Below, piece after piece: positions 7,398 to 59,400 of a stretch of DNA of 64,000 bases. Origin of the DNA: Cafeteria roenbergensis (Eukaryota; Sar; Bigyra; Bicosoecida; Cafeteriaceae). Both the position numbers and the translations under genes were made by a program. Positions within the stretch are counted from its first letter, which is position 1. Each line of letters starts with the position of its first letter. The stretch is taken from NCBI GenBank assembly GCA_008330645.1, contig VLTN01000024.1:62001-126000 (forward strand). Reading direction: 5' to 3'. Under the pieces are notes generated by a model. It had not been told where the DNA came from, made no database searches, and saw only the letters and a program-made list of their open reading frames with translations.

Positions 7398-10300
7398 ATG
7401 CGATTCATGCTCGATGGTTAGCGTGCTGGCGGCTGGCCGCACCGACGCAAAGCCACTGCGAGGCGTCCGCCCCGTCGCCAGCGCCCGCGCTGCTTGCGCT
7501 GCTGTGGCTTGGACCGCTGCTCGCAGGCCTGGAGGTATTTTTCCCCTACGACTTCATCTACAAGGAGCAGTACAGCTACATGCAAGAGCTCAAGGTGCGA
7601 GTGGCGCTCCTCATATCCCCGCCGGCGTGCGCTGCATTGGGGGCACTCTGCCGGGGCGAGCGAGCGCGGGGCATGCCGTGGCCCGCCGGCATGAGCCCGG
7701 GCCGCGCCCCGCACCTTCCAGCGACAGCAACGGTGGCACGTAAGAGCGCGCGACTCCTTTGGCGCGGGCCACGCAGAAGGCTCTTGACGCCAAGGGCGAC
7801 TGCTTGCTTGAGATGCCCACGGGCACGGGAAAGACTGTGACGCTGCTCTCGTTCATCACGAGCTACCAGCTGGCGCACCCGGAGACCGGGAAGCTGATCT
7901 ACTGCACACGCACAGTCCCGGAGATGACCAAGGTGAGAGCGGAGCGCGCCGACGATTCCTTGGAAATTCCAGGCTGGAGCATGTGCCTGCCGCAAGCGTC
8001 TGGTCGTGCCCGGGTTTTGTCTGAGCGCGCAAACCCTGGCCGCTGCGCGGCTCGCGGTAGCACACCCCGCCTCTGTCTCCCAGCTCGCCTCTCGCCGCGC
8101 GGCTGGCCGAGGGAGTGCTGGCGCAGGCTGTGGAGGAGCTGAAGCGGGTGGTTGCCTACCGGCACGAGGAGCTTCGGAAGGACGCCGTGGCGTCCGGCTC
8201 GGATGACGCCGCTGCAGAGGCGACTGCTGCAGCGGCCGACCTTCTCGGTATCTGCCTCAGTTCCCGGCGGAACATGTGCGTTCACCCCCGAGTGATGTCC
8301 AACGAGTCGGACAGAGAGCGAGTGGACGCGCAATGCCGCAGCATGACAGCGCAGTGGGTGCGGTCCAGGGCAGAGGCGGACCCGTCCGTCCGCCTCTGCG
8401 AGTTCTTTGAGAACTACGACCGCCTGGGCACCGACGCCGACCTCCGAGGCATTTACACGCTGGACGACCTCAAGGCCGCCGGCCAGGAGCATGGCTGGTG
8501 TCCCTACTTCTTGGCCAGGCACGCCATCTCCTTCGCAAACGTCGTCGTGTACAACTATCAGTACATGCTCGACCCGAAGATTGCCAACCTGGTGTCCCGC
8601 GAGCTGGAAGACAAGAGCATCGTGGTGTTCGGTGAGTCGCTGGTGCAGCGCTCGCCGCGCGTGCCGCTCCGCCGCAAGAGGGGCCCGCCAACGCGCCCGC
8701 TCGGCTCGCCTGCGTTTTGCCCTGCCTCCCAACCCTGCACAGATGAGGCGCACAACATTGACAACGTGTGCATCGAGGCGCTGTCCGTCACGCTGGACCG
8801 CGGCACGCTGGAGGGGGCCGCGCGCAACTTGGGCAGGCTCGCGGCTGAGGTGAAGCGGCTCAAGAGCACCAACGTGCAGCGCCTGCAGGACGAGTACGCC
8901 AGGCTGGCGCGCGGGCTCGGCCTCGCGGCAGGCGGGGCGCTGGCGGGCGCGCACGAGGGCGGGCGGAGCGACGCGGAGCCGAGCACAGCCCTGGCGGCAG
9001 CAAGCGCGGCTGCGGCAGCAGCAGCTGGTGCCAGCGCCGCCGCTGCGGCGGCTGAATCCGGCCCAGCCAGCGACTCAGTCAGTCGGCCTGCACAGGCGGC
9101 AGCCGCATCCGCGGCAGGGCCCGCTGCCGCTGCCGGCGGGGAGGACCTTCCGGCGGCGCCTGTTCTGCCCACTGAGCTTGCCGAGCAGGCGATTCCCGGC
9201 AACATTCGCAATGCGGAGCTGTTTGTGCGGTTCATGCGGCACGTCGTCAGGTTCCTCAAGGACCGGATCAAGGTGGCGCACGTGGATTCCGAAACCCCAG
9301 CCTCGTTCCTTCACCGCATGGGAACCACGCTCAGCGTCGACCCCAAGCCTCTCAGGTTCGCGTACAGCCGGCTGAACTCCCTTCTGCGGACGCTCGAAGT
9401 GACCGAGGTGGACGAGTTTGCGCCCATCAGCCTCGTCGCAGACTTTGCCACGCTCCTCGCCACTTACCCCAAGGGCTTCATGGTCGTGCTGGAGCCGTTC
9501 AACAGCCGCACGCCGCACATCCCAGACCCCATCATGCAGCTGGCGTGTCTCGGTGAGAGCGGCTCCGGGCCGGGCGACTTGGGGCTGCTGCGTCCTCGAT
9601 TTCCCATGCGCCGCAAAAAGCCGCTGCAGCGCCGCAGCGTGCCGAGCTTTTGGCCAGCCTCTGCCGCGGCTGGGGAGCCTTGGTGGTGCGACCGCCACCC
9701 CACCGCTCCCCACTCGTCTTTCTCCAGCGAATCCCCCCCCCCTCCCCCCCCCCGCATCCCGGTCGCTTGCTTGGTGGCTCGCAGACGCGTCTCTGGCAGT
9801 CCGCCCGGTGTTCCAAAAGTTCCAAAGCGTCATTCTGACGTCAGGCACGCTCAGCCCCCTCGACATGTATCCGAAGATTCTCAACTTCCACCCGGTCGTG
9901 CGGGCCTCATTCGAAATGTCCCTCACCAGGCCGTGCATTCTTCCGCTCGTGGTCAGCCGGGGCCGGGATCAGACGCCGCTGTCAACCAAATTTGAGACGC
10001 GCGACGACCAGAACGTGATGCGCAACTACGGCGATCTTGTTGTGCAAATGGCCAGCACCGTCCCGGACGGCATGGTTGTGTTTTTCCCGTCCTACTCGTA
10101 CATGGAAACCATCATCACGGCGTGGCACGAGTGGGGCGTGCTGGAGCGGGTTGAGGCCCACAAGCTGCTCTTCATCGAGACCAAGGATATTGTGGCCACC
10201 ACCCTCTCGCTGGGCTCCTTCCGCCGCGCCTGCGACTCGGGCCGCGGCGCAGTCTTCTTCTCCATCGCGCGAGGCAAGGTGGCCGAGGGAATCGACTTTG

Positions 10301-11310
10301 ACCGGCACTACGGCCGCGCGGTTGTGCTGGTCGGCGTTCCGTTCCAGTACACTCTTTCGCACGTGCTGCGAGCCCGCCTTGCGTTCATGCGCGATCACTA
10401 TCACATCCGGGAGCAGGACTTTTTGACGTTCGACGCTCTGCGAAACTCTGCGCAGTGCGTGGGGCGCGTGATCCGCAGCAAGCGCGACTACGGCGTGATG
10501 GTGTTTGGAGATATGCGGTACGCCCGGCAGGACAAGCGGACCAAGCTCCCGCTCTGGGTGCAGCAGGCGATGCGACCCGCCCACCTGGCCCTGACTCCGG
10601 AGCTGGCAGCTTCCGTCACGGCAAGGTTCCTCCGGGAGATGGCGCAGCCCGAGGACGCCGAGGCGGCGGTGGGGACGTCCCTGCTGCGGCTGGAGCACGT
10701 GAAGTCGCTCGAGGCAGCCCGGCTGGCGGACGAGGCGACGGCCGAGAAGGGGGTGGCGGTTGGCGGGGGCGCAGCAGGCAGTGCCGCAGACGCCATCCGC
10801 GAGGCTCTGGCGGGCGGCTTTGCTGCGGAGGGGGACCGCGCAAAGCCTGGCTCGTCTGACCCGGAGCATGCGGCTGCTGCTGCAACGGCCGAGGCTATGG
10901 CTGCTGTCAGTTACCCGCCCAGGGGAGCAGCAGGGGCGACGGGCCTCGGCGCAACTCAGCAGTCGGTATCCGCGCCAGGGGCCTTCAGCGGCCTGGGCGG
11001 CTTCCTGGACGCCGACGACGAAGACGACGAAGACGACGCTGAGTGGATGCATGTCTTGCCAGCGGCAGCATCGTCCGCAGCTGGGACGGCTGGCGTGGCG
11101 GCTGTCTCTGCCGGCGCCAGCGCGGCCGACGTGGCTGCTGGCGAGGACGTCGAGGACGATCCTGGCGTGCTGAGCGACGAAGAGGCGCTGGCGGCTCAGG
11201 CGGAGGCGGAGGCGGAGGGCCTCGAGGCGTCGAGTCGCAAGCGACCGGCGCCAGAGGGCGGCAGAGGCCTCAGCGCCCCAAAGCGAGCCAAGGCGGCCGC
11301 CGATCCATAG
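7398..11310 (+). CDS. ERCC2: XPD/ERCC2 DNA helicase, TFIIH subunit
   Basis: Six exons: 7398-7416, 7527-7594, 7777-7932, 8127-8631, 8743-9552 and 9785-11310, giving 1027 residues. XPD is the 5'-3' helicase of TFIIH, used in nucleotide excision repair and transcription initiation. Every junction restores conserved XPD sequence, for example [15 protein letters not shown] and VVF|DEAH. Walker A GTGKT has its Lys at residue 48. DEAH is at ~250. Four Cys of the Fe-S region are visible within CVHPR..., CRS, CEFF and WCPYF. Helicase motifs [17 protein letters not shown] and QCVGRVIR are intact. It differs from the usual ~760 residues in two places: an Ala-rich insert of ~75 residues in the arch region (nt ~8930-9150), and a ~200-residue acidic/Ala-rich C-terminal tail ending in basic clusters SRKRP and PKRAK that look like nuclear signals. 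The first exon is only 19 bases and its donor GTTAGC is weak. Confidence 0.95.
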
Positions 11311-13018: not shown

Positions 13019-13975
13019 ATGGCAACTGCGGGCTGTGGGCTCGCAGACTCGGGAGCATGGGGCGATAGTGACGACGAGATTTCCGTGCATCTCGATCCGC
13101 CCGCGCCCCTCGGGATCGGCCTTACCGACCCTCCCGCTCACCGCATGGACGAGTCGTTGTTGTCCCCCTCGTCATTCTTTGCCAGGCGGGACGTTGTGCA
13201 GCCTTGCGGCTCGGGGAGCGCACCGGTGAGACAAGTCGGCCCGCACCAGCAAGCGCCCTGCTTCAGCCCCACACCACGCAGCGCGCCGTGCACACGCTGC
13301 AACATGACGCCCGATGCGTGCCGAGCAGTGTGCATGGGTGCTCAGCGCCCAAGACGGATGCGAGCAGACGCACTTGCCGGGAACTCGCACAGTGCCATCG
13401 CCAGCGCTGCCCTCTGCTCGCGGAACCATCGCAGACGCCCGTGTGGAACTCGTGGCTCCTCGGGACCGACGGCGAGGAGGCGCTCGCGCCCACCCCGCAC
13501 AAGCGCAAGGCCCTGACCAGGCGCTACGAGGCGGAGCTGCGCTCCTGGCACGAGGCCCACCGGGCGCAGGTGCGGGCCGCGCGGGCAGGCCGAGAAGCGC
13601 TCATTGCCCAGGGCAAGCCGGCCCCCCCGCCGGTGCCCGACGCCAGAGTGGAGGTGTCCGTCCGCGACAGGAACCCGGGCGAGTTTCGCCTGCGCATCGG
13701 CCACGCCGGGCACACGCTGGCGGTCCGGTATGCCCCCGGCTTCCGGGCCGGCCACGCGGGCCACCTCTGGATCGAGGCCCGTTCCCCCGCCATGGAGCCA
13801 GTGGCCGTGGCCACCAACCTCTTCGTGGCCCGCACCGGCTTCCCCAACTTGGCTGCCATGGTCGCCGGCTGCATGGATCGCCTCGTCGCCAGCTACTTCG
13901 AGCACCGGTCGGCAGAGCACACGGCGGAGCTGTTTAGGGCTCTCCACCACCAGAGCTCCGCGGCCCACGACAGCG

Positions 13976-14006
<31 letters not shown>

Positions 14007-17000
14007 GGAGTCTGAAGGCCGGCTGGCCCGGCCTGCCGCGCTGGCGAGCGCGTGGAGCTGCCCCGACGACGAGGGCGACGACGGCTCTGCCGAGGGCGGG
14101 GCGGGGACGGCGTCCACTCTGCTGCGAGCGGACTCCGCGGGGGCGGCCCACCCCCACGCGCGTCGCAAGGCCGGCGGACGGGGCATGACGGCTGCGTCCG
14201 CCTTCGCCGAGGTGTGGGGCGCAGTGCGCTGCAGCTCCACCCCCGCTGCTCAGCTTCGCGCCGTGCGAACGGTGCTCCGCGAGGAGCTCCGAGCTCTGCA
14301 GAGTCTCTCGTTGCATAGCTCTGCCCAGGCAGGGCAGGCTGCTGAGAGGGCGACGCAGGCCCAGCGCACGGAGGCCGACGCCGCCTCCTCGTTCGCGGCC
14401 GCCGCGGCAGCGGCCGGGTTCGTGAGCTCTGCCACGGAGGCGCTGGACCGGCAAAGGGAGGCGCGGAGCGGCGGCGCGGTGGTGCGAATCCGAGACGTGA
14501 GCCAGCTGTTCCGCTGGGAGCTGGAGCTTCTCTTCGGCGAGGAGGACGGCGACATGGGGCCCTCCCTGCGCCGGCACGCTGCCCGGCACGGCTCCTCGGG
14601 CGCCCTCCGCGTGGAGATCAAGTTTCCCGAGACGTTCCCGGCCGCCGCGCCGGTGGTGCGCGTGCTGGGCCCGGTGCTGGCGGACTTCACGGGCCGGGTC
14701 TCGCAAGGCGCGATCGCCACCTCGGTGCTCTACTCACCGGCAGCGGCGGGTGAGGGGGTGGACACCGCAGCGGCAGTGCTGGCGGCGGCCAAGGCGGTTA
14801 AGCGCCACCAGCGCCGGTTGCGCCAGAAGCAGGGCTCCGCGGCGGCAGGCTCTGCTACTGAAGGCTCCGCGGCAGCAGCAGGCTCCGCGGCAGCAGCAGG
14901 CTCTGCGGCGGCTGATTCTGCCGGCGTGCCGGCAGCCGCAGCTGGAGCGGCCGCCCCGGCAGCCGGCTTCGTCTCCAAGTCTGGAGGCCCTGCCAGCGCC
15001 GCAGCCGCCTCCGGCGCAGGGAGCGACCCCGAGGCGGAGTGGTCCCCCGTGGTGGTGCCGCTGCTGCTGCGGCTGCGCGAGACGCTGATGAGCGCGGGCG
15101 CCGCAGTGAACGAGGACGTGGGCTGCGACTACGCCGCTGATGCCTTCGAGGCGGTGCACAAGCGCCTGCTCCAGGCCTCGAGGCGGCCGTCGGCGGGCGC
15201 GCCGCGGGACTACAGCGAGAGCCTGAGCGCCTGGTCCATCAGCTGCGCGGTTTCGCAGCTGGGGCTGGAGGTCCGCGTGCCAGACGAGTTTCACTCCGGG
15301 AACAAGCTTCTCCTGCCGACTGCCATCGACATCGTGTCGGGGGGGGGATCGCGCGTGCTTGAGGTGGTTCCGCAGGACGCTGCGTTGGACTTGCCCGCGT
15401 TGGGCACCCCGTGCGGCTTTCACTCCAGCATCGCGCCCAAAGGAATGGTCGTGTTCCCCGACCACCTGCACCGCTCCATGATGCTTCAGGAGGGATCCCA
15501 GGTGCTCGTGCGCACGGTAGAGCTCCCCAAGGTGTCCCGAATCGAGCTCAAGCCGCACCGCGCGGCCTGGCGCGATGAGTGCCCCATTCCCTTTCAGCCG
15601 TTCCTGCGCACCGCCATCCAGCGCTGGGCATGCTTCTCCGCCGGAGAGGTGATCACTCTGCGCGTGTCCAAGGCGGACTTTGAATCCCGGCCGGACTACG
15701 CCATCCACCACCAGGCGAGCCCCGACTTCTCGGCTGTCTTCACCGTGCAGAACATCGCCCCCGACGTGCCCGCCGCAAAGATCTGGACCGCCTTTGCCGC
15801 GGACATCAAGTACAGCTTCGCCCCGGCGCTCGACGACCCCGAGGGCACAGGCGGCGCACCGGGCGCCATCGGCTCCTCCGGGGCGGGCGGGGCGGCTGGG
15901 AAGGGAACACAGCTGGACTGGGCGGCATCCGCGTGCTCGGGCTACGGCAGCAGCCCCTTTGCATCGCTGACCGCGACGCCAGCGAGCGCGGTAGCCGCTG
16001 CGCCCGCGGCGCTGACCAGCGCGGACGCCACCGTTCGCCGCCTGTCACTGGGGCACGTGGATTCCGACGGCACGCTCCACGACGAGCCCCCCTCCGCGCA
16101 CGCCGACGCCGACGCTGTCATATCAGTCTCCGTCGCGCTGCAGAGCCCCGCTGCCGTCGCTGCGCGCCTGCGGGCTGTGGGAGGAGACGACGCCACGGTC
16201 TCAGCATCAGTGGCCGCTCTGCTGGCAGCGCCGCTGCCGTCGAGCCTGAGCTTCACGGCCCACCCGTCCGCGCCCGTGTCGTCGCTGTACGCACTCGCCG
16301 CCCGCCACGGCGCCCTCCCGGGGGAGGCAGCGTCGCTGCCGCCGCCCGCGCCGGCGGCCAAGCTGCCCTCTGGCGCCGCCACACCGCCGGCAGCCGGAGC
16401 GGAAGTACCAGGAGCCAGCGACGAGGCAGAACCGGCCAGTATCTTTGCGGCCGCAGCGGCAGCTGCAGCGCCGCCCACGCCCATGTCGCGGGCGACGCCG
16501 CCTGCCGCCACGGGGCCGGGCCACGCAGGGGCGGCCCTGCCGGTGGGAGTGGCCGGGCTGCTTCCTCGCTGGTCGCTGGTGGCCCTGCCGGCGCGCGGCA
16601 CGGCTCTGGAGGCCGCAGGCGGAGTCCTGGGGGAGGCGGCTTGCAAGGGCTCTGCCAGCACCGCAGTGTCGATTTCGCTTGTGCAGAGCTTCGAGGACGA
16701 CGTGGAGCGCGCGGCGTCCGGGGCCCTGGCAGCTGGCTCACCCGGGGCTGCGCTGGCCGGGCCAGCGTCGGGTTCGGCGGAGCGCGGAGTCGTCGGCGTT
16801 GCAGAGTCCGTGATCGCGATCGGCGTGGTGCCGCTGCTCGGGGGCGCCACCGCGTCGGGCGACCGCCGAACCGTCGGGATCACGCTGCCTGTCGGGGCCT
16901 CGTGCGCTGACCTGCATGCCAGAGTGCGAAGCGCTGCCCCTGCGCCAGCCGACGTGCCGACCCTGCTGGGGACGGTGCCCAGCGCCAGGTGCTGCACGCT

Positions 17001-17715
17001 GTCTGTCTACAGGCCGGCGGCTGGGTCGCCGCCTGAGTCAGGAGCCGGCGGCGCGGCTGCGGCCGCGGGGGCAGGAACCGCAGTCGCGACTCCTCTGGTC
17101 AGGCGGCGCCGCGAGAGCAACACCCTTCCGTTCGACTCGGCAACGTTCGTTCCGGACGATGCGACGGTGACGCTCGAGTCGCTGGGGTTCCGCCCGGGCT
17201 CGCCGGGCCTGGTGGCGCAGTTCGTGGCTCCGGTGACGGCTTGCGCTGTGAGGGCGCGTGAGGCGCTCGAGCAGCGCGCCAACATGGCGTGGCTGTGCCA
17301 GGTCTGTGGCAGCGAAGTGGAGGCGTTTGGGGTCGAATGCGAAAACTGCGGCGCCCCCCGGGACGACCCCGATGCGCTGGCGCTTGCCAGGCGGTCGCAA
17401 GCGCTGCAGGCCAAGGCGCAGGCGGGGCTCGGACAGGGGCCGGGCGGGGAGCTTGACGCCGTGTTCGGCACGCCGCCGAGTGGCTGCAGGCACGCGCCGC
17501 CGCAGCAGGGACGCCCACGGCCGTCGTGTGCTGCGCAGCCCGCAGACGAGGCCATCGTGACGTATTTCGTGGGGGGTCAGCGGCTGGGCCTGTCGGAGCA
17601 GAACGACTGCGGCTGGCTGCGACGCCTGGCCTGTCACAACGCGACAACCGCTGCTGAAATGGAGGAGTTCTCGCCCGAGTTTGTGCTCGCGAACCTCGAG
17701 GCGCCCGCGATGTAG
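13019..17715 (+). CDS. Fusion protein: UBE2Q-like fold without catalytic Cys, UFD1-like domain, RanBP2 zinc finger
   Basis: Two exons, 13019-13225 and 13435-17715 (phase-0 intron), give 1495 residues. Residues ~421-651 resemble the UBE2Q-type ubiquitin-conjugating fold: FRWELELLF, then IKFPETFP, VVRVLGPVL, and a later EWSP helix. The usual GA[IL]C active-site motif reads GAIAT (~494-498), so the catalytic Cys is absent. An Ala/Gly/Ser insert of ~70 residues (~530-600, with an 18-base repeat at 14863-14914) splits the fold. Residues ~665-865 resemble the UFD1 N-terminal fold (NKLLLPT, CGFHSSI, FPDHLHRSMMLQEGSQV, FLRTAIQRWACFSAGEVITL), which in UFD1 binds ubiquitin and p97. Residues ~1352-1382 are a RanBP2 zinc finger, WLCQVC...CENCGAP, often a ubiquitin binder. 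The rest is disordered, with a poly-Asp run near ~250. A role as a ubiquitin-reading adaptor is an inference. Confidence 0.75.
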
Positions 17716-18014
17716 ACCAGCGTGGCCGCTGCTGTGTGCGACGGTGTTTTCCTGAAACGCGAACCTGTGCCCGTCTGCCAGCCGCCGCGCGGCTCGACCG
17801 CTCCCGACGCTCACGCGCTGGCCGCGCAGGCGCAGTGCTCGCGAGCCAGACACATCCTCGCAGGCGCTCGCAGCCAAGGCCCTCCGGTCGGGCCAGATGG
17901 GTAGGCTAGGCCTGTGCTTGTTGTACCGAGAGTCGTGGTTCAGAGTCATTTCCAAATGCGACCCAGGCAAACGAGCGAGTGGCGCCGTGGCAGCCCGGCC
18001 GGCCACAGGCAGCG

Positions 18015-18584
18015 ATGGGCGGCAGCGCCTCGCAGGCCGCAGTCCCCGCGGCCGAGCGTGCAGCAGCAGTGGATGCCATGTACGCACGCTACACGGACCG
18101 CCATGAGGCCAAGTTCGGCGTGCGCTGGCCTGACGTGTGCGCTGCGGACGCGCTCGAGCTGCTGCGCGCCACCCCGCTGCCTGCCAAGGACGAGGCGGAC
18201 CCAGATGCCGCTACGCGGGCACGCCCTATCTTCGTGGACTGCCGCACGGCGCCGGAAGTGTCTGTCAGCAAAATTCCGGGCGCGATGACCGAAAGCGAGT
18301 ATCGCGCCTTGCTGCAGGCAGCTGACCGCGGCAAGCACGAGGACCGCCGCGTGGTGGCCTACTGCACAGTGGGCTACAGGTCAGGAAAGTTTGTGGTGGC
18401 CGAGCGGGCCCGGCGCCCCGGCGCGGACGTTGTCAATCTGGCGGGCTCGCTGCTTTCCTGGACTCACGCTGGCGGCCCGCTGGTCGACAGCGAGGGCCGG
18501 CCCACCGCAAGACTTCACGTGTTCGCATCCAAGTGGGCGCTCGCGCCCGAGGGCATTGAGATGGTCACGTTCCCGCTTCTGTAA
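18015..18584 (+). CDS. Rhodanese-domain protein, possibly N-myristoylated
   Basis: A single exon gives 189 residues. The rhodanese fold is shown by IFVDCRTAPEVSVSKIPGA (~75-93) and the active-site loop YCTVGYRSGKF, whose Cys is the expected persulfide carrier; a C-terminal segment LAGSLLSWTHAGGPLV follows, as in single-domain rhodaneses. The chosen ATG gives MGGSAS, which fits the N-myristoylation pattern (Gly2, Ser6); the more upstream in-frame start is a GTG and less likely. A sulfurtransferase role is plausible, but the substrate is unknown. The gene follows the E2/UFD1 fusion gene on the same strand after 299 bases. Confidence 0.85.
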   Translation: MGGSASQAAVPAAERAAAVDAMYARYTDRHEAKFGVRWPDVCAADALELLRATPLPAKDEADPDAATRARPIFVDCRTAPEVSVSKIPGAMTESEYRALLQAADRGKHEDRRVVAYCTVGYRSGKFVVAERARRPGADVVNLAGSLLSWTHAGGPLVDSEGRPTARLHVFASKWALAPEGIEMVTFPLL

Positions 18585-18793: not shown

Positions 18794-20380
18794 TCAGCGT
18801 GCTCGCGATCTGCTGAGCCGAGCTCGAAACTCGTCGCGAGCCGCCGTCACAGCGGCGGCGGGGATGGCTGGACCAATCCACGGGTGCAGCGCCAGCATCG
18901 GCGACGAGGGGCGGTCCGCGGGGCTCGGAGCGAGAAGGGCCTCGATCAGCGAGCGGAGCGCAATGTCGACCCGAGTCGTTCCAGTCACAGGAAGGCCTCT
19001 CCCGGCCTGAGTCTGCCAGAACATGGCCCAGTCGCCCTGCATGGCGGCTTTGCGCGAGACACATCCCATGCCGGCACCTTCCGCGTGGAGGTCATCGAGG
19101 CGCAAGTCCTCAAAGGGCAACACGCCGTACAAGCAGCGGAACAGCAGCACCCCGATCGCCCAGATGTCACACTTGGCCGCGTTGATGGCACTGCACCTGC
19201 CCGTGCGAAGGTCTGCTACTTCGGGCGCGAGGTACGCGGGCGTCCCACCCGGAAGGCTGCTGACGACGATGGGCCAGTGCTCCAAAGCAGCTGGTGACGC
19301 CCCTCGAGCCACAGACGACGCCCCGTGCCCAGCGCCCGACGACACATTGCTCGCAGTGTCGCAGCCCGCCCCTGCCCCAGATGCGGCAGCATCGCCGGAA
19401 TCATCTCGCGTGCGCTTGCTCCGCGAGAGGGGGCCGCTGCCCGCTGCACTGGCCCGCCTCTCAAGCGGCGCGAGGGCTGAGGAGTGCGCTGCAGGAGGGG
19501 TCCTGCGCCTGAGCACGGACACGTGGAAGTTTTGAAGCCGCACCTCGGCCCAGCGGTCACTGATGCCGATGTTTTCGGGACGGATATCCATGTGGGCCAC
19601 ACCGACCTTGTGGCAGTCCACCACCGCTGCTGCAAGCTCCTGCAGCAAAACAAGGGCTTGAGACAGTGTAAGCGGCCCCTCCGCCAGCACATCAGCGAGC
19701 GAGGCTCCGCAAACCTCTTCGTCCACGAACGTGATGTCCTCTTCAACGCCAGTCTCGGCTGCAGGGCAGACCGTCGCCCTGAAGGCGCGCCAGCGGCCAA
19801 CGAACCTTGGGTGACCACAGCTAGAGAAAGTCCTCGCCACAAGCCTGGTGCGAACGTTGGCGTCCTGCGGTTCAGGGCTTTGTGGGCAACGCAAGGAGAT
19901 GGAAGACCACTCTGAGACACATGCCACAAACCCGCGCCGCAGCTTCGGCCATTGCAAAACCCGGCCTCTCGACCCGCACACGCCCATCGCTCACTCTCGC
20001 ACGAGGCTCAAAGGACCACGCACGGCGTCGAAGTCCCATCGCTGGGGCTTCCAGTCTCCAAACCTGCGTCGTGCGACGGCTTCGTCAACGTTGACCTGAT
20101 CGCTGGCAATGAGCTACACTCGCTAGCTCCCTGGCGGTTTGGCACACCCCACCTGTTTGCGCTGCGACGCCCTTCCCCTCGCCACCCGTCGATGAGCACC
20201 TTGCACTAGGCTGGCTCAACTGTGCCGCCCCATGACACTCACTGTGCGATCCCCATCCGTGCGCTCGATCCAGCCGCTCGCCGAGACTCGCCTCACGTCC
20301 TGCCCTTGGGACTTTTTGGCCTTGAAGAGAACATGGAACTGGCGCCCTGGGACGAAAACAGCCGAACTCGTGGCAGCCAT
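18794..20380 (-). CDS. Probable pseudokinase (protein-kinase-like)
   Basis: Three minus-strand exons, 20380-20243, 20063-19995 and 19864-18794, with phase-0 introns, give 425 residues. The C-lobe is clear: a catalytic-loop-like HMDIRPEN, LAPEVADL for the APE motif, and CDIWAIGVLLF of helix F. The metal-binding DFG is replaced by QNFH, and I see no glycine loop or VAIK lysine in the short N-lobe. An inserted Ser/Ala-rich stretch lies between the DFG position and APE. This suggests a pseudokinase that acts as a scaffold or an allosteric partner. Exons 1 and 2 are less certain than exon 3; they were chosen because donor, acceptor and phase all agree. The gene converges on the rhodanese gene with 209 bases between stop codons. 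Confidence 0.65.
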
Positions 20381-20721: not shown

Positions 20722-23700
20722 TCACTTCAGCGCGGCGGCGCAGCGGCGCGAGCACGCGAGGTGATCTGCCTCGTCGCTTCCACGTCGCTCGGCCGACGGC
20801 CAAGCGCTGCCTGCAAGTCCAACGCCAAGCCGCTGCGCGACGGAGTCGACTGCCCGGGCAAGGCCAGGGCACTGCGCAAGGCACGCAAAGAGGCGGAGCT
20901 GCCGTGCGGCAGCAGCTTCGGCCGAGTGCTGGTTGTCAGCCAGCAGCTTTGCCGAGGCCACCAGCCGGTCAACCCGCTCGCGGTGTTTCGTCAACTGGTC
21001 GGCAAGCAGGCGCGCGGCTGCGCCAAGCTGGTCTGGGTGGGGAAGGAGCATCGCGGTCAGACCCTCGGCCAGCACGTCCGATGTTCCGGCGCCTCCCCAG
21101 GAGGCCACCGGCACCTCGGCCCGCATCGCCTCCACAGTTGCGAGACCAAACGTTTCGAAGTGCGGCAGCCCAGGGAAGAGCAGCACTGTGCGCGCGCGGG
21201 AGAGCTCGGCCCACATCTCGTCCCCTGCCATCTGCCCCCGAAACGAAACGCGAAGTCTGGCGTTCCCATCGCTGTCGAACCTGCTGCGCCTCTGCAGCGA
21301 AGCCGCGAGCGAGCGGAGCCCGCTCATCAGCGCCCCGTCCCCGAAGAAATCGATTCCCACCGCACACTGCTCGTGGGGGGCGGTCGCCAGCGCGTCTGCC
21401 ACGGCCGCCGCCAGCCGCAGCGCCAGCCCGGGGGCCTTTTCTGGAGACAGGCGGCCCACGAAAGCGAGCGAGACGCACTCAGTCTTGGGCGCGTGCCGTG
21501 GGGGGGGGCGGGATGACCACGGAGCCCGGGCGGCCGCCCGGCTCGCAGGCCGTCCTTCGGGGGCCTCGGCACTTTCTTGCTTCGCCTCGCCGCTGCGCGA
21601 AGCGTTGACCCCGGTGTCATCGGCGCGACGCAAGGGTTTGAGCCGCGGTGCCCCCAGGGGAACGGTCACCACAGGCACAGCGCCGTCCACCTGGCCACCC
21701 GGAGAGCACCACCCGAATCGCTCCGAGCCCCGCCAGGACGCGGGCTTCGCGGAGGCTTCCCGGGCGCGCTCCTGTGGCCCCTGGCTCGGAAACAACGCCC
21801 AACGGGCCGGAAGCAGCCCGTCACTGGACATCCTCCCCGCTTCCTGGTTGCCTAGCACGTCCAGAGGCACTGCGTGCGCTGCCAGCTGGCCAGCTGAGAG
21901 CCCCGCCCAGCCCACGGCCGTCCTGCCTGCGCGGCACACAGCTGCCCCGCCAGCCACAAGCTCCACCGCCAGCACGTCCCGAGCGAACGTGGACGGCGCA
22001 GTGATGACGCTGGCGGCCCCTGCAGCGGCTTCGGCCTGCATGCCTGCGTGGAGCGACGCTGCCTGGAGGACCACCGCCTGTGCACCCGCCGCTGTGGCCA
22101 GGGCCGGCCCCACCAGGTCCTGGATGCCGCCGTGCAGCGACCCGACCACCACTCCGCACCCACGCAGCGACGCGACAACTCCAGCGACGCCGCGCACCAG
22201 CCAGCCGACGTACGCGCGGAGCGGTGCCGAGTCGCCCCTCGCTGCAGAGCTGCAGATCTGCAGCCGGGTGCGACCCCCCCGAGCAGTGCCGTTGGTGCGG
22301 CACAGCCCGGCCGCCAGCACCTCAACCAGTTGGTCGGCGCTGAGGGACGCCACCCCGTCCGCATCCGCGTTTGTCAGGACCCGGCCGCGATGGCGCGACG
22401 ACGCCAACCCCTCCCATGACTCATCCCCTGGGTCCTGGTCCGCCGACGCTGAGCGCGTCGTCGTCGACTGGCCCGCGTGCGGACTCCCGTGGCGCCCGCG
22501 CGGTTCCATCCGCTCGCGCGCTGCCAGCCACTCGCCGACCAGTGGGGCGACCCCCGACATGTGCGCTGGCAGCGCGGCCCCCAGCTCTGCCAGCCCCGAC
22601 GCCGGCACTCCCAGGAACGACGAGCCTGCCTGACGGCCGCCCGCGTGGCTGCCAGCGAGCCCCGCCAGCGACTCGGGCACGTTTGTCCATGAGTCCTGGA
22701 CATCCGCCCCCGCCGCATGGAACAGCGACCGGACGGCGCTCGCGTCCCCTTGCCCAGCAGCAGCCGCGCCAGACGAACCGCCGCCGGCAGAGGCCCCGCG
22801 TGCCGTTGGCGCCCTTGCGGAACCGCTGCTTGCGGCGGCGCGACTGGCGTCGCCGGGCCCTTCGCTGATGGAGACCACGCGCACGCGCCGTGCCGCCGGC
22901 GGAGGCGGCGGCGGAGGCGGCAGGGCGCGCTCGCCGCGGCCGTCTCTGCCGGCGCCGTGGCCAGCTGCAGGGCTGCTCCCAGCGCTGGGTGCGCTCGTGG
23001 AGCCGCGCCCCATCGTCGCGTTGCGTTCTGCTCCGCTGGCAGCCGCGTTTGCCGCTGCTGCCGCCGAAAGCTCCGCTACAAGGCCCGCAAGCGCGGTGAC
23101 CATCCCATCCAGGCTATTCAGCTGCGTGAGAATGCAGAGGCGGGGTTCCGCTTCCCCGCGTGCGGACCATCGGTCCCGCTCCGGGTCGCCTGCTGGCGCC
23201 GGCGCCGCTCGGCGCGGAGACTGGAGGCCTGGCGGCGAGGCTGCAACAGGCCTGATGGCCGCTTCGAGAATGGCCGTGCGGTGGCGCTTCGCAAAGCCCC
23301 GTGCCGCTGCGGTGTGAGCCGGCTGGAATCCGGCAAGCGCACTCCAGTCCGCTGCGGCGGGAGCGGCTGGTCCGGCGGGAGGCACGAACCCAGCGGCGGC
23401 CGCGGTTGCGGGTGCTTGCGGGGGAAGGTCGGGAGCCGGAATGACATCAATCAGCCGTGTTGTTTGCGCGGCGATGCTCCACAGACCGGCGCCCACGCGG
23501 CCGCGCAGCTCCGGCGGGGCGGGGATTTCGGCGTCGCTGGCGCCACCGGCTGGAGGCGGGGCCGCGACAGGCGCCCAAGGCCCCGCGCCAAAGCACCACA
23601 CGCGGGCTGTGATTCGCGCTGTCCCAAAGAACAGTGCCAGCGACGCCAAGTGCCTGTGCCGGCTCAAGCGGCTGCTGTCGGAGTCACTGCTTTCTCGCAC

Positions 23701-24069
23701 GAGGGCGTCCAGCCCGCCGACCCGGAAGAACCGCGGCCACGAGCCGAAGAACGCCACCACTTCGAGCTGGCAGCTGGTGCCGGGGGGCGCCGAGGCCCAC
23801 ACCACGGCGCGCGTTCCGGCCAGCTCCGAAGTTGCCCGCAACTGGGACGTTGCGGACAGCTGCAGGCTCGACGCCTCCACGACCGAGCCCGCTGCGTTGC
23901 GCCGCCAGCGCCCCCACCCGCGAATCAGTCCGTGTGTGCCCGGCACAGCATCGGGAGCCACGATGGACACCGACACGTTCGGGTGGATGACGGCGGCTGC
24001 AGGCGGAGCCAAGCTTGCTGCCCACGCTGCCCACACGGCAGCGGCCACGAAGCTGCGGCCGCGGACCAT
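20722..24069 (-). CDS. GT4-type glycosyltransferase with signal peptide
   Basis: A single minus-strand exon gives 1115 residues. Residues 1-26 form a signal peptide or signal anchor, so the enzyme should enter the secretory pathway. The C-terminal ~250 residues show the GT-B fold nucleotide-sugar half: LAFVGRLSPEKAPG (~865), DFFGDGALMSGLRSLA, then LFPGLPHFETFGLATVEAM with the ExnE pair (E-x7-E, ~972-980), and PVASWGGAGTSDVLAEG. The N-terminal ~850 residues are long for the family, with Ala/Pro/Ser/Gly-rich disordered inserts (for example around nt 22880-22930). The donor and acceptor sugars cannot be deduced. The gene is divergent from the methyltransferase gene over 376 bases. Confidence 0.8.
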   Translation of the reverse strand: MVRGRSFVAAAVWAAWAASLAPPAAAVIHPNVSVSIVAPDAVPGTHGLIRGWGRWRRNAAGSVVEASSLQLSATSQLRATSELAGTRAVVWASAPPGTSCQLEVVAFFGSWPRFFRVGGLDALVRESSDSDSSRLSRHRHLASLALFFGTARITARVWCFGAGPWAPVAAPPPAGGASDAEIPAPPELRGRVGAGLWSIAAQTTRLIDVIPAPDLPPQAPATAAAAGFVPPAGPAAPAAADWSALAGFQPAHTAAARGFAKRHRTAILEAAIRPVAASPPGLQSPRRAAPAPAGDPERDRWSARGEAEPRLCILTQLNSLDGMVTALAGLVAELSAAAAANAAASGAERNATMGRGSTSAPSAGSSPAAGHGAGRDGRGERALPPPPPPPPAARRVRVVSISEGPGDASRAAASSGSARAPTARGASAGGGSSGAAAAGQGDASAVRSLFHAAGADVQDSWTNVPESLAGLAGSHAGGRQAGSSFLGVPASGLAELGAALPAHMSGVAPLVGEWLAARERMEPRGRHGSPHAGQSTTTRSASADQDPGDESWEGLASSRHRGRVLTNADADGVASLSADQLVEVLAAGLCRTNGTARGGRTRLQICSSAARGDSAPLRAYVGWLVRGVAGVVASLRGCGVVVGSLHGGIQDLVGPALATAAGAQAVVLQAASLHAGMQAEAAAGAASVITAPSTFARDVLAVELVAGGAAVCRAGRTAVGWAGLSAGQLAAHAVPLDVLGNQEAGRMSSDGLLPARWALFPSQGPQERAREASAKPASWRGSERFGWCSPGGQVDGAVPVVTVPLGAPRLKPLRRADDTGVNASRSGEAKQESAEAPEGRPASRAAARAPWSSRPPPRHAPKTECVSLAFVGRLSPEKAPGLALRLAAAVADALATAPHEQCAVGIDFFGDGALMSGLRSLAASLQRRSRFDSDGNARLRVSFRGQMAGDEMWAELSRARTVLLFPGLPHFETFGLATVEAMRAEVPVASWGGAGTSDVLAEGLTAMLLPHPDQLGAAARLLADQLTKHRERVDRLVASAKLLADNQHSAEAAAARQLRLFACLAQCPGLARAVDSVAQRLGVGLAGSAWPSAERRGSDEADHLACSRRCAAALK

Positions 24070-24445
24070 GCGCCCTCTGTACAGCCTCGACCCACCACCA
24101 CCCCTGGCCCCGCAGTGGCTTGTCTTTGAAGGTTGTTTCGGTTGCCGTCAGCCGCGCCTGGCGGCTGCAATATTTGCGTGCTTCAAGACACCCCCTGAGA
24201 GCCGAATCGGCCGGGCTGCAACTGGCTCCTACGCCGAGCTTCTGCGGGCGCGCCGGGCCGAGCTGGGCCCGCTGCCACGTCAAACGCGGGCCGAAGCACC
24301 CACCACGTCACCTAGACCGCCTCGGCGCCCCGGGAGCGGGACTGAGGAGCGCCTGATCGCGGCCCTGGCGGCCCAGGGCCGTCGCGACCGGAACTCGCAT
24401 CGATCGCGCGCCTCGGCCAGTTGCAGCAGCTGCGACAGTCCCGCC
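24070..24445. promoter_or_regulatory. Divergent region with GCAATATTTGC element
   Basis: 376 bases between divergent start codons. At 24167-24177 lies the near-palindrome GCAATATTTGC, whose reverse complement contains GCAAATATT, like elements in three other 5' regions. The methyltransferase frame stays open through this region, so its start could be further upstream. Confidence 0.4.
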
Positions 24446-27603: not shown

Positions 27604-30600
27604 TCAGCGCCCTGAGTCGGGCCTCAGCTGGGGTGACCGGGAGTGGTCGGAGCCGGCGTCCGGCTGCCCGGCGTCCCCCGAGTACTTGAGGCCTGACATG
27701 CTGTTCACAAGGTCCCGAAACACCGGCAGCGACCGGAGAACGACGTCAGGAAAGAGCAGCACCCGCTCCCGCGTGCGCTTCATGCTGGCGTTCTCGTTGA
27801 TCATCACTGTCCGGTGCATGAACAAATACCCAAAGACCTGCACCATGATGGCGACAATGGTGAACGCCAGGTTGGCGCCCAGAAAAGCGTCCACGCTGCT
27901 CACCACTTCGTTGAAGGTGAGCCAGCTCGCTCGCTCCAGACCCACGGACATGTAGATGAAAGCAAACTCCCGAAGCTCCAGCCTCATCGGAGACTCTAGC
28001 CGCTCCAGAGTCGTGACAACCGTCCCGGACCGAATCTCCTCAGCCCGCTGACGCACAATGGACGTCGCAAGCTCGGTGAACTGCAGCAAGCCAGCATGGA
28101 GGCCCTGCCGCAGCACGCCCGACGAGAAGGCCTCGCATCGCGCCCTGTCGCTGCCGCCAAACAGGGTCGGGCAGATGTCCTCGAGGAACAGCCGCGACTG
28201 CGCCTCCGAGTCGTGCGCCGGCACCAGGTTGAGCTCCGCTGAGCCGTAGAGGATGACATCCTCCAGGTAGCGGAGGTCGTTGGCAATCGAGGTTGCTGCG
28301 TCGCAGAGCTCCAGCGCCCGGGTGCTATTCTCCTGCTCCAACGCAGTGACGACGGCAAAGTTTGTTTGGAACATCTTGGTCTGGCGCTGCATGGAGTAGA
28401 ATACGCTGCGACCGCTACGGATGGAGCTGTCTACGAAGCCCGACACCCAGAAGTAGCTGCCGATGAAGTACGCCATAGCCGCGACAAGAGGCAGATAGAG
28501 AATGACGACCATGCGCACGAAGCTCATCCATGACTTGGAAAAGGCGCGCTTCTTCTTTTTCTTGGAGTTGCGTGCAAGGCGTTGCCAGTCGAGGTGCAGC
28601 AGCGCGTCGGCGGTGGTCGTGGAAGGGTCTGTCGGCTCCCGCTCAGTGTCGTTGTTTCCCTCTCCCTCAGCCACCATGACATCCATGCCACCGATGTCGT
28701 CGTCCTCGTCGTCGTTCTCAGCAACCTTGGCGTCCAGGTGCGTTTGCACAATCCCGCGCAGGCGCCGGACGACGACCAGAGGCACATCCAGAAACATGCG
28801 CCAGATGCCGTCCTTGGTGCGCTCCACCGCAAGGGTGATGGGGCTGACCACCGCGGCCAGCGTTATGAACGTGATGGCGACTGCAATGATCAGGAGGATG
28901 GCAATTGCAAGCGTCGCCGCATGGAACGCGGACTCTGCAGTGGACTGAGCAATTTGAGTCGACTCGTTCAAGGCATATGCCATGCCCGCGGCACCGTTTT
29001 CCAGGACAAAGGCCACGTCGCCGCGACTCCCTTGCCTCCAAGCGGCCTCTGGCTGCATCGCCATGGCATGGGCGCGGAAGTTGAACTCTGAGGCGAGGTC
29101 CATCAGCCCCATCATGTGCGTGGTGGAGTTGTAGCGGTCGTGAAACCGCGTTGTCGGCAACACGGGGTCGTGGTAGTATCGCTGCAGTGCCTCGTTGTCG
29201 CCTACCGCCTGCTCCAAGTAGAGCTGCCTGTTCAGAAGCCGAAACTCCTCCAGGTACGCGCTCATGGCCCTCACCGTGGAGTTGAAGTCGAGCCCCAAGG
29301 CGAGCAGTTGCTCGCGGGTGACAGGGCTGCTCGCAGCATTCAGCGATGCCTCGGAGACTGCCTGGTGGACTGCTGACTGCATCTTCGTGATGGTCTGCAC
29401 GCCGAGCAGCTGCCGCTGGCCCGACGAGCGAACGGTGCCGAGCTGGGCCTTGAGCCCCTCCAGCAGCTGCCGCGCGGTGAGCATCGAGGCCACGTTTAGC
29501 AGGGACACAAGCACCACAACGCAGATGAGCGTGGTGTTGAGGAGCCGGAGGGAAGGCTCAAAGGCGTCGGCCGACTTTTCAATGATGCGCCGGAGCGACT
29601 TGCCCACCGACGAGCGCGAGCCCTGAGAGCCTGTGGAGCTCCCATGGTGCGACCCGGTGGCGGCCCGTTCGCCCCACTGCCCCTGCTGGTCCATGGCTCC
29701 GTCGCTGGGCCTTCGGCGCAGATCCAGGGGCCCAGCAAGTTGCGGAGGCTTCATCAGCGCCGAGCCTCGCCGCTCTCGCTTGGAGAATATTCTCTCGTGG
29801 AGCTCGCTGTCTTCTTCGCCAGCGGCGGGCCCCTGGGCGGCAGCGGCTGCTGCCCCCGGATGCCGCAGTTGCATGGAGGGCTGCGCCGTCAGGTCGAGCG
29901 CGCCGTGGCCTTCGCCGTCGCTGTCCTCGCCTTGGTCTGCAGCCGCGGAGTCGACGGACTCCAAGTCGTTCCCCGCCGGGGCCAGGCTGTCCACGTCGTC
30001 ACCAGCTTCGTCCTCGCCGTCGTCTGCCTCCTCCTCTTCGCCGTCCTTGGCAAGCAGATCGGCCGGGAACGGTGCTGAGCGAAGAGACCCAGCTAAGCTG
30101 TCATCTCCGTCCACCATGGCCAAGCCCGTTGGCTCGTCGCTGGAGGCCCGGCGAAGCCGGACCATGACCATCTCGTTGCTGCCAGACCCGACGAAGCGGG
30201 TCGACGCCCTTCGGGCCTCGGCCGAAGTGGCCGAGGGTTCGCCAGCGGCGCCGTGTTCTGCGCTCGCCACCGCGGACACTGCAGCCCTGGAGGCAGTCGG
30301 AAAGGCGGCGTCTCTGGTGCTCGAGGCGGACGGCGCAGGAGCGGGAGCAGGCGCAGCACCGTGCACGGCTGTGCTGATCGAGGGCCCAACCTGACCGATG
30401 GAAGCGAAAGCGCTCGACTGGCCGAGGCCTGCCCCCACCTGGCTTCGCGCTGCAGGGGACGAAGGCATGGCAGGCCCCGGCTCCGGCTCGTCCACCTCGG
30501 CAACAGCGCTCGGCAACCCCGTGGTGCGCACGAACGAAGGCCGATCGGTGCTGCGCGCGCTGCTTCCCTTCCCAGAGACTCTGTTGGCTGCCGCCGCCTG

Positions 30601-33585: not shown

Positions 33586-34551
33586 TGCAAATTCGGCCGC
33601 GTTGACCTTTGACGGCGCAACGCCCAGCGCGCCCCCAACGCCAGACGATCGCCGCTTGCGCGTTCCTTCTGCGAGCAATCGACAAAACCACCGGGGGCGA
33701 GACGGCGCGAAAGGAATCCCTGGCTTGGGGGAGGCGTGGCCGCAACGCATCGCCTGCGCCGGAGGGGAAACAGGCGACACTGCGCGGAAAGCAGGCACGG
33801 CCGAAGCCGCGCCAGGCGGCGAGGCAGAGGGCTCGCTTTGCGACTCGCAGTGGCAGTGCGAGCAGGGGGGCACTGCGATGCCAGGTCGGCCGCGCCTTGC
33901 GCGCGCCGCCACGCGGCAGAAGAGGCGAGGGAACGCGTGCTCGGCAGTCCCTGGCACCGCCGCGCCGGCGTTCCTCTCGCCTCCCGTTTGGCGCTCGCAA
34001 CCGCGAGCGCACCGCGAGCCGCCGAGGGCCATGCCCACCGGCTGTGTGAGGAGCGAGCGGCAGCGCCGGTAGGGGCTGCGCGGGAGCGCTCGGCGTGAAC
34101 ACGCTCGCGAAGGAGCAAGTGCGGTTGTCAGTGCTGCCACGCTGCGAATCGCCGAGCTGCTGGTCAGGGGGCACACTCACGTGCTCGCTCCGTGGCGGCC
34201 ATGAGCCGCGCACCGACACGCCTGCGCGGTGCAGCCCGCGGGACCCGTCGCGGCAGCGCTGCGGCTCGCGCAACTTGGCCGAGCTCCCGACAGCGCCACC
34301 TCGGTGCCGGGGCGGCCGGTCAGACTGGGTTGTCAGCTGCCTCCAGCCCGCCGACTCTACAAGCGGGTGCCTCTTGCACACACACACACACTTGTTCGAT
34401 CGATCGCCTCCGCGGGCTCTGCCGGGCGAATCGCCTGCGCCCAAGAGGGCCGCACGCTCCGACTTGCGCCCGCAGGCAGCAAGCCCGGCCCGGCCGCCCC
34501 GCCACACGCTCGCCCCCGCCCACCTTCGCGCCGGCGGATCTGGAGGGGCTG
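33586..34551. promoter_or_regulatory. Long divergent intergenic region
   Basis: 966 bases between divergent start codons of the PAS sensor and the GLG1-like gene. Both promoters and leaders must lie here. A (CA)7 run is at 34377-34390. Frames are open on both strands without recognisable domains. I see no RNA gene. Confidence 0.4.
34377..34390. repeat. (CA)7 microsatellite
   Basis: Perfect CA repeat about 160 bases before the start codon of the GLG1-like gene. Confidence 0.9.
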
Positions 34552-56414: not shown

Positions 56415-59400
56415 TCATCATCGTCATCGCCGTTCATGAAAAAGTCGTGAATTGCATGGTCGCGCGGCGCCTCGTCCAGCAGCTCGACCGGAAGCGTGTC
56501 CAGGAACTCGTGCGACAAGTGCGCCTCCTGCAGCAACGCCGCGATGGCTGCCCGCAGCCCCATGATGTACAACAGGCCCAGGACGGTCAAGTTCGCGGCC
56601 ATGATGCTCGCCTCCACGGCCAGCTCGTCCTGCACCGTGTGCTCGCTCTCCTCGCGGAACAGCTGGATGCTCTGGAGCAGCGCCGACATGAGGGGGCCCT
56701 CGATCGCAGGGCCGATGTGGCCGTACTGCTCGTGGCTGAAGAGCTCGGACAGGTCGTGCCCGACCACCCAGTCGGCGTAGGTGGTCAGGTTCAGGCCGAC
56801 CGCGTCCACGTGGGGCAGCAGCTCCGCGTCCGAGGGCACCGGCGCTGCCTCGTGGCCGGACGAGGCCGACAGCCCTCGCCCGCTGCCCGCGCCGCCCAGC
56901 CCGCGCAGATGGGCGTGGGCCACCGTTGAGTTGGGGGCCGAGGAGTTGGTGTTGTTCGTGCCGAGAGGCCCCACCGCCCCGTCCGTGTCGAGCGACGTCG
57001 CCTGGTCATCGTGCTCGTCGGGTCTGAGCGTGACACCCTCCAGGATCATGGCCCGGTTGCGCTCGGCGATGATCAGCGACACGGCGTCGAAGTCAGCGAT
57101 GCTCACATTCAGGGCAGCGGCCGCAGACGCCGCCATCCGCTCCGCCTCGGACAGGTAGCGGTTCAGCGCCGCCGTCAGACCGAACGACTCAATCTCCTCC
57201 GCCAGCGACGCCTTGGTCTGCTGCAGGAACGTGCGGACGCCCAAGTGCGAGCTGGTGTTGAGCACGTGCGCGGGGGGCGTCCCGGTGGCTTGGCCCGAGC
57301 CGTAGAGGAGCTCGCGCTGCGGCTCGTACCGCTGGTCGGACGAGTGCAGGTGGAGCCGCGCGTTGCCGAACCGGATGCTGTTGTGAAGCGCCCGTGCCTT
57401 GGCGGCCGCCACGCGCGCCTGCACCAGTGCGGACACCGGGTCGACCATCTCGCCGTCCCCGATGGCGAGCTCTCGGAGCAGCATCCCGGCCAGCATCGCG
57501 GCGTCGGACCGGCTCGCAGCGGCCATGATTTCCGCTGCCTCCTCGGCCGCAAGCTCGGTCGCGCTGTAGGCCGTCGTGAACGTGATAACCTGCAGTCCGG
57601 CAATGGCGAATAGGACCACGATCATGACCCGTGACACCATGGACACATGCCGGACGGTCGGGTGCATGGGGACGCCGTCGGACGCGGTATCGAACACGCC
57701 GACGCAGCATCCGAGCTTCGTCCGAGCAGCCTTGTGCTCTGCGTGCGCCTTTGCGCGACCAGACTTGAGCTGCTCTTCCTCGGTTGCCACGCCCTTGGAC
57801 TCAGATGCCACAGAGCCCGTCACGACCAAGGGCAACTTCGGCGGATTCTCCGAGCGCACGGCCGCCGCCGCTGCTGTGGTGACGTCTTTGCTCAGCTCCG
57901 CCGCCGAACCCTTCAGGTGGGGCAAGCTCCTTTGCTGGAGAGCTGGGCTGGGCGAGTGGCCCGAGGACGAGAGACGGGCGCTTGCGACGCGACCCAACGC
58001 GCTTCAAGAGCCTGGCCGAAGTGACTCGCTCAGAGCTCCCTCTCCAACTCACGCTTGCGAGGAGTTGGCAAGCGGAGCAGCTCGTCTAGGCTGGGGTCGT
58101 GGCTCCCAGCGGCCTCACGCTAGCTGCTGCGCGTCGAACTGGAGGCAGCTGCCTTGAGTGAGGCTCGCTGGAAGCTACCGAGCGATGCTAAGCAGCTGCG
58201 TCACATCCATTCCGTCTCCAGACGTCCCACCGAGGCGGCTGCCATCGTCTCCGAACGTGCGAGCGGACGCGCTCGAGCTCGCGTCGCGGTCTGCCTCTGC
58301 GGCCTCGGCCGCCACCTGGCCATGCGCCTTGGACAACGGCGACTGCGGCGCCGACTCGCCGTTCTCCTCCTCCGCGATGGCCACCAGCGGCTTGCCAGTG
58401 CTCGCGCCGGGCACCGCCGCGCTCCCTGGAAGCAGGCCGGCGCTGCCCACGGCCGAAGCGGACACCACGTCCTTGATCTCCCCGCCCTCCTCGCTTCCCG
58501 CCCCCGCCGCGCCCGCGGCAGCCTCGGACTCCGGCGCCCCGGGCTCCTCCTCCTCCTCGTCGTCGTCGTCGTCGCTCTCCATGGCGTCCTCCTCGCCGTG
58601 CATCCTGCGGTCCGCGCGCTGGTACATGCTCACCATCGACTCGGCGGTGCGGAGGCTCACGATCGCGGGGGCCACGTCCATGAGCGACACGGCGCTGCGC
58701 GACACGCGGTGCGCGGCTGGCCGGTAGATGACCACGAAGATGCTCGCGTTGGTCAGGAGCAGCGTCACCAGGATGCCAATCTGGATGGCGTGGAAGGTCA
58801 CTGCCAGCGCCTCGTCGTTGAGCTCGTACAGGCTTGTGGTGGCGGCGAGGGCCGGCAGCAGCACTTGCTGCACGTTGGCCATGGCAAAGAACCAGTCCGG
58901 GCGCAGCCGCACCGACTCCAGGGTCAGCGACTCGCGCCTCGACTCGGAGGCGATACGACGAAGGGCCATGAGGCTGTCCTGGAAGAGGTCCGCCGGGTTG
59001 CTCACCCGCTCCGCGCCCTGCAAACGAGGGCTGGATCTGGCCGCTCCGTCGCTACCCAGCTGGCGCCGATGCGCGCCGGCGTCGCGGGCGTCGTGGACCA
59101 GGAGGGGCTTGGAGTGCATGAACATGGCCACCGCCCCGCTGCCCTCCGACGCGCGAAGCTCCTGGTTCGCGAGATCGGCGTGCGTGGTCGCGTCCAGCGT
59201 GGCCTCGCGGTAGTCATTCCACAGGCTGTCGTTGACGCCGGCCGACGCCAGCTGCACGGACCTGGCGCCGTAGAGCCCCTGCTGCATGCGCTCGGCGCGC
59301 TGTGCGCTCATGTACGTCGAGTTGATGCTGCTCTGAAACGCGTCCAGCATGATCACGGTGATGCCCAGCGCCCCGATCATCAGACACCGCCATGACGAGC

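Follow-up and report, generated by a model that had tools for sequence, protein, structure and literature searches.

What can a ubiquitin-conjugating enzyme (E2) fold contribute to a protein if it has lost its catalytic cysteine and stands in one chain with a UFD1-type domain and a zinc finger? This question is raised by a gene at positions 13019 to 17715 of the forward strand of a 64,000-nucleotide stretch of Cafeteria roenbergensis DNA (contig VLTN01000024.1, positions 62,001 to 126,000, assembly GCA_008330645.1), which is referred to here as the window. A first-pass annotation, made from the sequence alone, had described its product as a UBE2Q-like pseudo-E2 fused to a UFD1-like domain and a RanBP2 zinc finger. 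A single open frame, 13072–17715 (+) with its stop codon at 17715, encodes 1547 amino acids. The predicted protein of this frame is called P0001, and residue numbers refer to it.

The E2 domain and its catalytic position

In a phmmer search of P0001 against the PDB, five distinct sequences were matched at E up to 10. The sole E2 among them is UBE2Q1 (2qgx), at residues 460–555 with E 0.03. The other matches are to UFD1: entry 2yuj at residues 707–873 (E 4.1e-5) and three more entries at 4.4e-4 to 5e-4. When a 90-residue alanine-rich insert is removed from the E2 domain, Cdc34 precedes UBE2Q1 (0.0049 and 0.0086 versus 0.0093). A pair profile made from the E2 parts of the window protein, without the insert, and of a paralogue elsewhere in the genome places UBE2Q1 first of the 102 chains matched, at 1.2e-7. 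This profile also matches 1zuo, labelled 'LOC92912' and presumably UBE2Q2, at 2.2e-5. The UBE2Q-type reading made in the annotation is therefore supported at the level of sequence.

The active site of the window protein, GAIATSVL, aligns with GAICMELL in UBE2Q1, GRLCISIL in Cdc34 and GAFCIPAL in the paralogue, and its alanine lies opposite the cysteine of all three. This bears out the earlier observation that the catalytic position reads alanine (GAIAT). The only cysteine within residues 467–705, at 685, corresponds to a second cysteine of the paralogue rather than to the active site, and no other cysteine of the domain therefore takes the catalytic place, as the annotation had allowed might be the case. 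At the level of sequence, the E2 homology is nearest to UBE2Q with alanine replacing the catalytic cysteine, and the predicted protein lacks that cysteine whether or not the insert is removed as an intron.

Members of the UBE2Q family (UBE2Q1, UBE2Q2 and UBE2QL1) have no HPN motif, and none was seen in the window sequence. PMC10971424 describes UBE2Q enzymes as lacking HPN and able to modify serine and threonine, with UBE2Q1 using a Tyr-His-Trp triad. Unlike these enzymes, the window protein has alanine for cysteine and no clear triad: by eye, there is a glycine 8 residues before the alanine and no H-x4-W after the domain. The window E2 also departs from the family in its fusion to a UFD1 domain and a zinc finger. 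No N-terminal RWD domain is recognised in the protein. An RWD domain was considered for the N-terminus, where neither the Pfam scan (0 families in 13435–13956) nor the E2 pair profile gave a match. UBE2QL1 is described in PMC6776906 as having no N-terminal RWD domain.

A cysteine-bearing paralogue of the fusion

The genome searched comprises 167 contigs and 36,303,456 bases. At E up to 10, a 447-residue E2–UFD1 query has 9 matches in it, one of them the window. Two of these are pieces of one 1030-residue frame on contig C3 (UFD1 side 4.7e-12; E2 side 9.3e-5), and another is a frame for UFD1 on contig C1 (0.002). The remaining five are weak (0.095–3.77) and fall chiefly on the low-complexity stretch of the query. 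The C3 paralogue is read as two exons (L011 4935–4795 and 4430–1698, minus strand) joined by a putative splice, and its sequence contains WLVTLADFDDGTPSGKA-FAEDL...GGAFCIPALFKEGWSP. Its order is an E2 domain with the catalytic cysteine (GGAFCI), UFD1, two C-x2-C-x10-C-x2-C fingers and a tail. This is the E2–UFD1–zinc finger–tail order of the window gene. The paralogue differs in its intact cysteine, its two fingers and its lack of the long flap insert, and its gene model is without the long N-terminal extension.

The domains of the paralogue are individually recognisable. Its E2–UFD1 part alone matches UFD1 (2.5e-7) and UBE2Q1 (2.3e-5) in the PDB, and its isolated E2 domain gives Pfam UQ_con at 1.5e-5 (25 of 27 bits). 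Pfam also gives UFD1_N2 at 9e-8 (32.5 of 37 bits), UFD1_N1 at 0.0075 and the RanBP finger at 9.5; in the genome search UFD1_N2 reaches 38 bits, which is above its cut-off. Searched on its own, the first finger finds chains of Nup153 (5.2e-5) and RanBP2 (0.027).

The window protein and the paralogue are 29–30% identical and are matched by BLASTP at 9e-19 over the C-terminal half of the E2 domain and UFD1, and at 1e-7 over the N-terminal half of the E2 domain; for the finger, BLASTP gives a non-significant E of 1.4. Local scores were also compared with 1000 shuffles each, for segments picked by eye. None of the shuffles reached the scores of the two E2 halves (z 17.9 for the N-terminal half and 7.8 for the C-terminal half), of UFD1 (z 28.4) or of the C-terminal tail (z 8.4). 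The finger gave z 5.2 (1 of 1000 shuffles); with the paralogue's second finger as partner, z was 3.7 (6 of 1000). Among the 616 six-frame open reading frames (ORFs) of 60 amino acids or more in the window, the E2 and UFD1 queries from the paralogue match one, which is the fusion (3.8e-10 and 3.2e-12). The UFD1 pair profile of the two proteins places UFD1 first in the PDB at 2.8e-9, and all 6 of its matches are UFD1, in support, by sequence, of the UFD1-type domain proposed in the annotation.

Because BLASTP, shuffles, ORF searches and pair profiles agree, the layout is both real and duplicated. The comparisons thus confirm, at the level of sequence, the predicted E2–UFD1–zinc finger arrangement: a UFD1 N-domain directly after the E2 domain, a finger with the spacing of RanBP2 and a conserved tail, matched by a collinear paralogue in which the cysteine is kept. 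The predicted fusion is a duplicated gene with one cysteine-bearing and one cysteine-less member. Coordinates of the features are given in Table 1.

Table 1. Features of the fusion gene, in window coordinates.
Feature	P0001 residues	Position	Strand	Basis
Putative first exon, 69 amino acids		13019..13225	+	ATG (start uncertain); splice, also uncertain, from donor GTGAGA to an acceptor at 13435 in phase
Coding stretch: N-terminal region with no family recognised, leading into the first half of E2		13435..14749	+	GC3, codon score
UBE2Q-like E2 domain, N-terminal half	467-555	14470..14736	+	Paralogue match, UBE2Q1 2qgx
GCC, Ala at catalytic Cys position	549	14716..14718	+	Alignments with UBE2Q1, Cdc34 and paralogue
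270-nt Ala-rich stretch in active-site flap (90 residues)	561-650	14750..15019	+	May be an intron, in phase, or a low-complexity insert
C-terminal half of E2 domain, from WSP onward	656-705	15037..15186	+	Paralogue match
UFD1 N-domain	721-922	15232..15837	+	2yuj E 4.1e-5; pair profile 2.8e-9; paralogue match
Possible ubiquitin-like region, tentative	1247-1387	16810..17232	+	Reading by eye
Zinc finger W-x-C-x2-C-x10-C-x2-C	1407-1426	17290..17349	+	1 match, 0.00 expected
Conserved C-terminal tail and stop codon	1491-1547	17542..17715	+	Paralogue tail match

Role of the cysteine-less copy

It is somewhat probable that the window gene is the cysteine-less member of a duplicated UBE2Q–UFD1 fusion family and that, without catalysing transfer itself, it serves the paralogue as a partner, regulator or decoy. 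Since a paralogue of the same layout keeps the cysteine, a dead copy of a cysteine-bearing fusion describes the gene better than does an isolated adaptor. The window protein would be unable to accept ubiquitin from E1; its E2 fold would serve as a docking surface while the UFD1 domain would hold ubiquitin chains or clients, beside the cysteine-bearing paralogue. It may be, more speculatively, that the paralogue makes ubiquitin marks and passes them within the chain to the Cdc48/p97–Npl4 route. That the genome holds two such one-chain E2–UFD1 machines, with a UBE2Q-type E2 joined to a p97 ubiquitin reader and the live copy adjusted by the dead one, is a tentative proposal that we regard as doubtful.

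Several results weigh against these readings. Searched on its own, the window protein stays below every Pfam family cut-off: UQ_con gives 10.9 of 27 bits (E 0.35) and UFD1_N1 20.7 of 29 bits (E 0.011 with the full protein, 3.1e-4 with just the domain). Nor does the gene appear when the whole genome is searched with UFD1_N1 (2 matches), UQ_con (40) or UFD1_N2 (4). Read by eye, the Tyr-His-Trp triad is not evident in either copy, and the activity of the paralogue is therefore uncertain too. The C-terminal part of the paralogue alone matches none of the 616 window ORFs at E up to 10. A single-sequence AlphaFold2 model of 14422–15852, insert included, has a mean predicted local distance difference test score (pLDDT) of 37.1 and a predicted template modelling score of 0.27, with 436 of 477 residues below pLDDT 50 and none at 70; a model of such low confidence speaks neither for nor against the folds.

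The zinc finger is a further weak point. The annotation had called it a RanBP2 finger, of a kind that often binds ubiquitin. Its spacing is that of RanBP2, but among the 13 Pfam families that match it below threshold a double zinc ribbon comes first (0.0027), a zinc-ribbon family gives 0.0092, and RanBP is seventh (E 0.098; Zn_ribbon_RanBP 12.4 of 27 bits). Ubiquitin-binding NZF fingers have a Thr-Phe pair that contacts ubiquitin, and an asparagine. The window finger has Gly-Ser in place of the pair and is also without the asparagine; the fingers of the paralogue carry Thr-Val and Thr-Ala there.

Loss of the cysteine through loss of function, in a duplicate drifting toward a pseudogene, is unlikely. 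The low identity to the paralogue, the lost cysteine itself, the single finger where the paralogue has two and the large alanine-rich stretches would all fit such decay. Nevertheless, UFD1, the zinc-finger cysteines and the C-terminal tail are conserved with the paralogue, and G+C at third codon positions (GC3) is 0.82–0.94 in 16 of 18 150-nt steps over 13372–16071, including 9 of 9 from 13372 to 14721. The two exceptions lie in the insert (0.78 and 0.60), and values are lower downstream of 16071, ranging from 0.68 to 0.92. The frame also stays open for about 4.3 kb. This is weak evidence, because long ORFs are common in the approximately 70% G+C DNA found here: G+C is 64–75% per 2-kb step across the window, and its six frames hold 136 stop-to-stop ORFs of at least 200 amino acids.

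Ubiquitin E2 variant (UEV) proteins such as Mms2/UBE2V and TSG101 have an E2 domain without the catalytic cysteine, and Mms2 presents ubiquitin for Ubc13. The window protein resembles them in having an E2 domain that lacks the cysteine but is otherwise recognisable, and a UEV-like co-factor might pair with an active E2 and present ubiquitin while the attached UFD1 part selects chains or clients. The window protein is nearer to UBE2Q and is multi-domain; its closest PDB relative is UBE2Q1, and no E2 variant is named among the best 60 of the 102 chains matched, which makes this role improbable, if a little less so than decay. That two adjacent genes, one E2-like and one UFD1-like, have been misread as one is very hard to credit: the predicted frame runs uninterrupted through both domains and the same order recurs in one frame of the paralogue. 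The reading as a cysteine-less, ubiquitin-binding partner, regulator or decoy is the most likely one.

The annotation had further suggested a single-chain ubiquitin adaptor that delivers to p97 or the proteasome. UFD1 is a cofactor of Cdc48/p97–Npl4, for which UFD1 N-domains read ubiquitin, and the N-domain is what the window protein has in common with it. In contrast to UFD1, the window domain is fused behind an E2. By pattern search, no strict SHP box was found in the window protein (0.10 expected) or in the paralogue. The C1 UFD1 frame likewise has no strict match, so that absence of the box is weak evidence against a p97 role. In the window protein a loosened SHP pattern matches 4 times (2.45 expected) and a VIM-like pattern once (0.36 expected), both near chance, and there is no VBM-like match. 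Direct binding to p97, and with it the adaptor role, is conjectural.

Two other UFD1 loci in the genome exceed Pfam cut-offs, the C1 frame passing both UFD1_N1 and UFD1_N2. Three NPL4 matches exceed theirs, on contigs C11, C38 and C39, each partial; there is perhaps more than one NPL4-like gene. Given these loci, it is improbable that the fusion serves as the housekeeping UFD1. Two tRNA-Met genes adjoin on C1 (L001 2638–2713 and 2893–2967, minus strand), behind the UFD1 frame.

The annotation knew of no described protein with this set of domains, and none is apparent in the open PMC literature on UFD1 with UBE2Q or E2, judged mostly by titles and the opening lines of abstracts; the novelty of the fusion is assessed against this literature alone. 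UFD1 is treated as a separate protein in PMC2408969. In human cells, p97 is no longer recruited to damaged lysosomes when UBE2QL1 is knocked down (PMC6776906). If the two-machine proposal is true, the fusion would be a natural record of this link between UBE2Q and p97, known there as a functional dependence. The joining of a UBE2Q-type E2 to UFD1 suggests that a single unit can both mark and extract, and the occurrence of cysteine-bearing and cysteine-less copies in one genome makes a catalytic versus a binding role testable.

In viral contigs, none of the pattern matches was confirmed for the pair alignment (0 of 62), the paralogue (0 of 1), the E2 alignment (0 of 32) or the UFD1 alignment (0 of 61), and in GTDB genomes none of 101 was confirmed for the pair alignment. 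As these collections hold viruses and prokaryotes, the absence of relatives says little about eukaryotes. NCBIfam, a prokaryotic library, has no match for the window protein or the paralogue.

Gene model and neighbouring frames

The start at 13019 given in the annotation lies outside the open frame and requires a spliced first exon. Such a start is plausible from its splice sites: the acceptor before 13435 reads ATCGCAG and the splice 13225 to 13435 is in phase. Codon support is weak (+0.19 per codon; -0.076 for synonymous choice alone), compared with +0.33 to +0.52 across 13435–14749, on codon statistics partly trained on the 3' half of the same gene. With this splice, residue numbers of the annotation equal those of P0001 minus 52, and its ranges for the E2 fold (421–651) and the UFD1 barrel (665–865) agree with P0001 467–705 and 721–922.

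The alanine-rich stretch in the flap may be an intron. A donor GTGAGG at 14750 and an acceptor GCGCAG before 15020 are both in phase 1, and their use would remove exactly 270 nt. GC3 of the stretch is 0.68 and its codon score is mixed (+0.24 in total, -0.04 synonymous). The form without it aligns through the flap with Cdc34 (SDPEAE-WSPV / DEPDAETWSPV; E 0.0049).

The tentative ubiquitin-like region has no Pfam support in the window; its match to the paralogue is not significant (z 1.7, equalled by 65 of 1000 shuffles), and a PDB search with the region of the paralogue gave chance-level matches only. A weak match to a Sde2 ubiquitin domain at residues 1054–1077 (Pfam E 0.031) disappeared when the region was scanned alone.

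Neighbouring domains were scanned in 9 of the 136 window ORFs of at least 200 amino acids. A rhodanese-domain frame lies directly downstream of the fusion gene (17910–18584, +), and is followed by a protein kinase frame with a Pkinase match in two stretches (18794–19990, -). A Helicase_C_2 domain frame is found at 9403–11310 (+) and a group 1 glycosyltransferase frame at 20722–24147 (-). Two large frames, 27604–34176 (-) and 58175–61036 (-), carry TmcB-type TPR domains, the former also PAS, and perhaps represent an expanded family.

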